Assembly (NCBI RefSeq): GCF_020614375.1
Contig: NZ_CP085327.1
Location: 2,034,823-2,098,822 of the forward strand
Length of the DNA: 64,000 nt
Source: Haladaptatus salinisoli
GTDB lineage: Archaea; Halobacteriota; Halobacteria; Halobacteriales; Haladaptataceae
Reading direction: 5' to 3'
Of this stretch, positions 39,592 to 40,662 are shown one piece after another; within the stretch, counting starts at the first letter, position 1; each line of letters starts with the position of its first letter. A program made the translations under genes and the position numbers. A model generated the notes under the pieces. That model ran no database searches. It was not told the origin of the DNA and saw only the letters and a program-made list of their open reading frames with translations.

Positions 39592-39974
<383 letters not shown>

Positions 39975-40013
39975 GCGTCGATAACGAAAATCGCTCTTTG
40001 TTCTACCCTCGAA

Positions 40014-40024
40014 CTTATTTATAT
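40014..40024 (+). promoter_or_regulatory. TATA promoter of the micro-ORF/small-gene pair
   Basis: TTATTTATATC is centred about 26 nt ahead of the ATG at 40045, so transcription should start at or within a base or two of that ATG. Confidence 0.65.
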
Positions 40025-40044
40025 CCTCGGTCCAATAGAGTGGT

Positions 40045-40092
40045 ATGAACCCCAGCACCCTCCGACGAGGCAGTTCAAGGTGGTGGCCGTGA
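40045..40092 (+). CDS. Leaderless 15-codon upstream ORF
   Basis: ATG at 40045 opens a 15-residue ORF, MNPSTLRRGSSRWWP, ending at TGA 40090-40092. The ATG sits at the predicted transcription start, so ribosomes would initiate here first. The stop overlaps the GTG start of the next gene as GTGA, a standard coupling overlap. The peptide is basic with two adjacent Trp. It may set translation of the downstream gene, act as an attenuator, or be a functional micro-protein. Confidence 0.5.
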   Translation: MNPSTLRRGSSRWWP

Positions 40093-40463
40093 GTCCCGAG
40101 ACGGAGCAACGAGACGACGTACTTTCGCTCGACCTCGGAGAGTCTCCGATGCCGTTCGACCCGGAGGGCGTCCTCGGCACCGACCACGACGGGGACGTGC
40201 TCACCGTGTTCACGGTCGCCGGCGGCGGTGCGTCACTGGTGCTCGCGCGCGAGTCCGCCGCGTCGGACCGACCGACCCCGCTCGACGAGGACGACCTCAC
40301 GACGGCGCTCCGAACCGGCCTCGCCTACCTCTTCTGCGACGGCGTTCGGACGGTGCGAGTCCGGGCCGACCCGGACTCCGTCGCCGACGCGCTCGACGCG
40401 CTCGGCGGCGACGCGCTCCATCGCTACGAGGACGTGACGTTCACCGCAAAACTCGAAGATTAG
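40089..40463 (+). CDS. Small conserved-looking protein of unknown function
   Basis: A 124-residue acidic soluble protein starting at GTG (VSPETEQRDDVLSLDLGES). It has alternating beta strands and helices (DVLTVFTVAGGGASLVLAR, DDLTTALRTGLAYLF, DALDALGGDALHRY) but no catalytic motif I recognise. The GTG was chosen because it overlaps the upstream micro-ORF stop in a GTGA. Two further GTGs lie 6 and 9 nt upstream in frame. It is convergent with the zinc-finger gene at 40460. Confidence 0.65.
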   Translation: MSPETEQRDDVLSLDLGESPMPFDPEGVLGTDHDGDVLTVFTVAGGGASLVLARESAASDRPTPLDEDDLTTALRTGLAYLFCDGVRTVRVRADPDSVADALDALGGDALHRYEDVTFTAKLED

Positions 40464-40624
40464 TCCGGTCGGTCGATGTCCAGTTCCTGCCGCAGGGACG
40501 CCAGCGCCTCCGACTCCGCGAGGTCCTCGAATTGCTCACGGAAGTGCGCGTCGCAGAGGCCGACCTGCACGCCGCCCAGTTCCGGCGCGAACGACGCTGT
40601 TCGGTCACAGTAGTGACACCGCAT
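40460..40624 (-). CDS. 54-residue zinc-finger protein (DUF6757-like)
   Basis: The protein begins MRCHYCDRTASF and has a CxxC followed by CDAH (LCDAHFREQFEDL), so one zinc is likely bound by three Cys and one His. The C-terminal half is an amphipathic helix region. I recognise it as a haloarchaeal family, probably DUF6757, of unknown function. An in-frame ATG at 40645 would add seven residues. The gene ends in a 4-nt overlap with its convergent neighbour. Confidence 0.75.
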   Translation of the reverse strand: MRCHYCDRTASFAPELGGVQVGLCDAHFREQFEDLAESEALASLRQELDIDRPD

Positions 40625-40662
40625 GCGCCGGACTACGGTCTCCATCGAATTGAACCCTGCGC

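Follow-up and report, generated by a model that had tools for sequence, protein, structure and literature searches.

A leaderless-type micro-ORF joined by a GTGA overlap to a lipoprotein-related gene in Haladaptatus, a candidate ribosome-delivery ORF

The window, a 64,000-nt stretch of the Haladaptatus salinisoli genome (NZ_CP085327.1, positions 2,034,823 to 2,098,822), contains a small gene of 124 codons, here called the host gene, between a ferredoxin gene and a convergent DUF6757 gene. A 15-codon open reading frame (ORF) precedes the host gene and overlaps its start codon. The features are, in window coordinates:

39654..39974, + strand: upstream neighbour, a 4Fe-4S ferredoxin gene (Pfam Fer4 families), kept in all relatives
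39994..40003, + strand: T-rich stretch 3′ of the ferredoxin gene, a probable terminator between two transcripts; T-rich in 11 of 11 aligned genomes
40014..40024, + strand: TATA box CTTATTTATAT, its TTTATA beginning 27 nt 5′ of the micro-ORF ATG
40045..40092, + strand: putative leaderless micro-ORF, MNPSTLRRGSSRWWP (15 codons) followed by TGA; ATG and frame conserved in Haladaptatus
40078..40082, + strand: Shine-Dalgarno (SD)-like AGGTG within the micro-ORF (codons Arg12-Trp13), 6 nt from the GTG and able to pair with the 16S rRNA 3′ end
40089..40092, + strand: GTGA overlap of the gene start GTG (40089-40091) and the micro-ORF stop TGA (40090-40092)
40089..40463, + strand: host gene, 124 codons, start GTG, related to the C-terminal domain of a haloarchaeal Tat lipoprotein
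40460..40645, − strand: downstream convergent neighbour, a DUF6757 protein gene (Pfam PF20542), kept in all relatives

A sequence-only reading of this DNA had described a TATA box at 40014-40024 and an ATG at 40045 opening a 15-codon ORF, with two adjacent Trp and three Arg and a stop inside the GTG of the next gene. The window agrees with this description to the letter, and the residues concerned are R7, R8, R12, W13, and W14. Most mapped haloarchaeal mRNAs are leaderless. TATA boxes in the source genome peak at −33 to −27 from called start codons, and the TTTATA at −27 falls within that range, so transcription is expected to start at ATG 40045 or a few bases off, judging by the TATA distance. 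Two other host-gene starts, GTG 40080 and GTG 40083, were rejected because their conservation fails across the genus. A frameshifted N-terminal extension of the host gene was rejected because its own frame is closed upstream by stops in G003, G004, G002, G005, and G007. The cupin gene that adjoins the ferredoxin gene is matched by two overlapping pieces in G003 (L003:2518-2962), which suggests a frameshift in that genome.

The locus was compared across nine Haladaptatus genomes, all of which carry a host-gene ortholog; its anatomy, conservation, and synteny are direct observations. The micro-ORF ATG lies exactly 44 nt upstream of the host-gene start in all nine, with TTTATAT or TTCATAT at −27. 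The start TATG is identical in all nine genomes, whereas just 6 of the 63 neutral columns nearby show such identity. Stops across the micro-ORF region number 1, 8, and 5 in frames 0, 1, and 2. The 15-codon length and RTGA overlap are kept in eight genomes, and the junction tetramer is GTGA in seven, ATGA in one, and GTGG in one. The GTGG belongs to G006, where a TAG at codon 14 ends the micro-ORF and a 2-nt gap takes the place of the 4-nt overlap; the exact overlap is thus dispensable there. By a rough estimate, about ten coincidences of this kind would arise by chance per genome. A single genome could therefore show the arrangement by accident, and its conservation across the genus marks it as more than chance. 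The sequence-only reading had proposed comparing both the peptide and the overlap in relatives; the overlap was retained, and the peptide was not.

Across micro-ORF codons 3-11, pairwise differences within the genus total 138, 201, and 170 at codon positions 1, 2, and 3. Synonymous changes were not enriched relative to permuted columns in the nine genomes. Little is common to all the peptides beyond M, N, and an Arg-Trp pair, and that pair is encoded by AGGTGG, a match to the complement of the 16S 3′ end (GGATCACCTCCT). The SD match spans 4-7 nt, with a 6-nt spacer to the host start in eight of nine genomes, and shrinks to a weak 4 nt in G001 and G006. Earlier, a real micro-protein had been suggested, and these counts do not bear it out. 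The ORF is present in nine of nine genomes and its changes within the close trio G002, G004, and G005 are mostly synonymous, which would suit a functional 15-residue peptide. However, the 45 nt compared in the trio are too little to weigh, codon position 2 changes most genus-wide, and the few shared residues include an Arg-Trp that the SD site itself encodes. We consider a functional micro-protein extremely improbable.

Attenuation had also been suggested, in which ribosome stalling at Trp or Arg codons of a leader peptide would control the host gene. The window copy has its adjacent Trp pair and three Arg, and a Trp codon lies within the SD region in every copy. Against this, conservation does not extend to the second Trp or to most Arg codons, the conserved Arg-Trp coincides with the SD site, and no run of regulatory codons is conserved across the nine genomes. 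No conserved hairpin was found; the RNA folds no better than shuffled sequence (z −1.0 to +0.7). The host gene, as kin of a lipoprotein domain, has no visible tie to amino-acid supply. Attenuation is very unlikely on these grounds. An unconserved peptide, Arg-Trp codons that double as the SD site, and a fold no better than shuffled sequence make both peptide-centred readings poor ones.

The host gene is intact in all nine Haladaptatus genomes, with many invariant residues and dN/dS of 0.11-0.35, values indicating that it is under purifying selection. The protein matched no Pfam family. Its AlphaFold model has a mean pLDDT of 80, and a fold search of this model against the PDB gave a best match of E = 0.75, with no close solved relative. 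Over its last ~120 residues, a 340-350-residue Tat lipoprotein encoded in two genomes of sister genera (G009 and G015; L024 and L025) is homologous to the host protein. In both, the lipoprotein gene occupies the position of the host gene, between the ferredoxin gene and the DUF6757 and PHP genes. Promoter regions of the Haladaptatus and lipoprotein genes align from the T-rich stretch to the ATG, most rows needing just one gap of one base; the leaderless-type ATG of the lipoprotein aligns with that of the micro-ORF. This ATG is thus probably a fossil, the position at which an ancestral leaderless lipoprotein gene once started. Because paralogs of the lipoprotein occur widely in the family, Haladaptatus included, truncation is probably the derived state. 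These alignments suggest that the host gene is the C-terminal remnant of an ancestral lipoprotein whose middle was lost by internal deletion in Haladaptatus; two outgroup genomes underlie this history, including its inferred direction. A decaying lipoprotein pseudogene with nothing under selection would also leave a full-length gene at this position in two sister genera, but it has next to no probability given the intact reading frames, constrained dN/dS, and invariant residues.

The strongest parallel was found at the helicase gene hel308. Within the family, 28 of 28 genomes, covering three genera, have a leaderless-type micro-ORF ahead of hel308 that ends on the GTGA of that gene (L091-L118; L038:14941-17200). 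These micro-ORFs are 12, 13, 18, 21, or 27 codons long, all in frame, and contain no stops in their own frame versus 23 and 11 in the other two. The SD spacer is 6 nt in nearly all 28 genomes. As at the lipoprotein-related gene, the peptide is not conserved and the linkage is. In G014 the ATG of the true micro-ORF is the second one that follows the TATA box; in G007 and G001 the micro-ORF has an extra in-frame ATG two codons upstream. In 20 genomes of other families, the hel308 ATG itself lies directly behind the promoter in nearly all; it is 31-33 nt after a TTTAAA-type box in the 15 genomes with that box. The same distance separates the box from the micro-ORF ATG in this family, so transcription of hel308 appears to have kept its start, and the start codon of the gene appears to have shifted 3′ of the micro-ORF.

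Genome-scale counts were made on an 864-kb sample of the source genome, in which 843 genes were called. Six of these genes have, with a TATA box at leaderless distance, a short upstream ORF that opens with ATG and ends on the gene start; at each of six control distances the count is 0-1 (mean 0.67). A 400-kb sample of G013 gave one case versus none in the control, and the class is therefore small and uneven. The strict pattern TTTATA-N-ATG-N-RTGA matched 15 times in the 864-kb sample versus 8 for the reversed pattern, with few matches in frame, and was too blunt to be useful. Conservation was examined for four of the six source-genome cases. An antiporter gene has a 5-codon ORF overlapping its start in nine Haladaptatus genomes (L061-L069; L040:16812-18696). 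This ORF reads ATG-GAG-GGN and encodes MEGRP, MEGRS, MEGQQ, or close variants, and TTGA replaces RTGA at its junction in G003. In genus g3 the related antiporter genes lack the ORF and instead carry a short GGAGG-bearing leader; the family may therefore also use SD-led initiation at genes that have no micro-ORF. A RecA/KaiC-like ATPase gene has a 27-33-codon leaderless-type micro-ORF and GTGA in five genomes (L179-L184; L042:1671-2772). The arrangement is lost in G005, and the promoter motif was not found in G006-G008.

Two further short ORFs were noted. A transporter-like gene has a 16-codon leaderless-type ORF ending on TTGA (L150:11280-12615). A 30-codon leaderless-type ORF with one transmembrane-like stretch (MSTPTKIVIGTVGLTALAAIVVVFNFWFAA) overlaps the next gene by TGATG (L038:6319-7087, − strand) and is probably a real small membrane protein.

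We propose that the 15-codon ORF upstream of the lipoprotein-related gene is a ribosome-delivery micro-ORF, and consider it quite probable that leaderless loading there is followed by SD-assisted termination-reinitiation at the host GTG. A ribosome would start leaderlessly on the 5′-terminal AUG (40045), read 15 codons, and terminate at the UGA within GUGA. Pairing of the AGGUG 6 nt upstream would hold the terminated ribosome, which would then restart on the overlapping GUG and synthesize the 124-residue protein. Selection would act on the AUG at the transcript start, on the openness of the frame, on the SD site, and on the RTGA overlap, with the peptide as a by-product. The lipoprotein gene would have lost its middle, leaving a C-terminal domain that is now started by reinitiation. 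The transcript start, the translation of the micro-ORF, and its coupling to the host gene are predicted from the sequence comparison. The sequence-only reading had put forward a route in which a ribosome starts leaderlessly, has to pass through the micro-ORF, and reinitiates at the overlapping start of the second gene; conservation and published haloarchaeal reinitiation (PMC6728339) lend this route support.

The chief rival treats the 44 nt as an ordinary 5′ UTR, with de novo initiation at the GTG through AGGTG and a micro-ORF that is incidental or rarely translated. The good SD site at 6-nt spacing would serve such a start, the antiporter relatives in g3 have SD-bearing leaders without a micro-ORF, and G006 lacks the exact overlap. 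However, this reading leaves unexplained an ATG fixed at the predicted transcript start in nine of nine genomes, as well as the codon-multiple length changes and absence of in-frame stops in 28 hel308 genomes. In Haloferax, moreover, translation from the one 5′ UTR examined did not initiate de novo through its SD motif (PMC3986360). We judge de novo initiation unlikely.

Ribosome delivery through a micro-ORF could arise by a relay of starts. In haloarchaea the promoter would fix the first AUG, and an indel that breaks the frame of a leaderless gene would turn the old start into that of a micro-ORF, with restart at a GTG overlapping the new stop. The hel308 gene (insertion, family-wide) and the lipoprotein-derived gene (internal deletion, genus-wide) would be two independent examples. 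We hold this history to be evenly balanced between true and false.

If ribosome delivery is true, conserved leaderless micro-ORFs would partly answer how genes are started other than at the first AUG and what role intragenic SD sites have. They would also mark a convergence with mycobacteria and could serve as compact, natural expression cassettes. With its before/after contrast, hel308 allows a direct test of the idea in a haloarchaeon amenable to genetics. Start annotation can overlook such micro-ORFs and calls for caution.

Several known systems resemble parts of this arrangement. In its account of Haloferax volcanii transcripts, PMC4983044 gives 72% of protein-coding transcripts as leaderless, and describes a leaderless GUG start as weak in single-gene tests, yet found naturally. 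The same source lists uORFs (Table 2) that, like the micro-ORF here, encode 15-31 residues upstream of haloarchaeal genes; those lie in 5′ UTRs of 150-250 nt, and start/stop coupling is not part of their description there, whereas the Haladaptatus micro-ORF is predicted to begin the transcript and overlaps the gene start. Overlapping gene pairs of Haloferax volcanii use termination-reinitiation, with a variable contribution from an intragenic SD (Huber et al. 2019, PMC6728339). They share with the present case the stop/start overlap, the helping SD, and a haloarchaeal host, but both members of those pairs are ordinary genes, whereas the upstream member in the present set is an ORF of 5-33 codons that opens a predicted leaderless transcript. 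Ribosome delivery by a short ORF has been proposed as an alternative initiation route in a 2025 review (PMC12548453). An engineered leaderless bicistronic design in Corynebacterium glutamicum likewise has, as outlined in PMC10367133, a leaderless first cistron that controls expression of the second; that design is bacterial, and the present arrangement is natural and archaeal. The closest counterparts are the "coupled" leaderless small ORFs of mycobacteria, which are joined to the next gene by RTGA and conserve the linkage but not the peptide (Shell et al. 2015, PMC4633059). They too have a leaderless start on an unannotated small ORF, an RTGA overlap, and a suggested embedded SD. For those bacterial cases RNA-seq and ribosome profiling provide support, whereas the Haladaptatus case is archaeal and known from sequence comparison. 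Unlike them, the micro-ORF of hel308, and probably that of the lipoprotein-related gene, appears to occupy an ancestral leaderless gene start. A literature search of partial coverage found no report of a leaderless micro-ORF combined with coupled reinitiation in archaea. The kind is known in bacteria; what appears new is the archaeal set, its family-wide conservation, and the evidence that a micro-ORF can replace an ancestral leaderless start.
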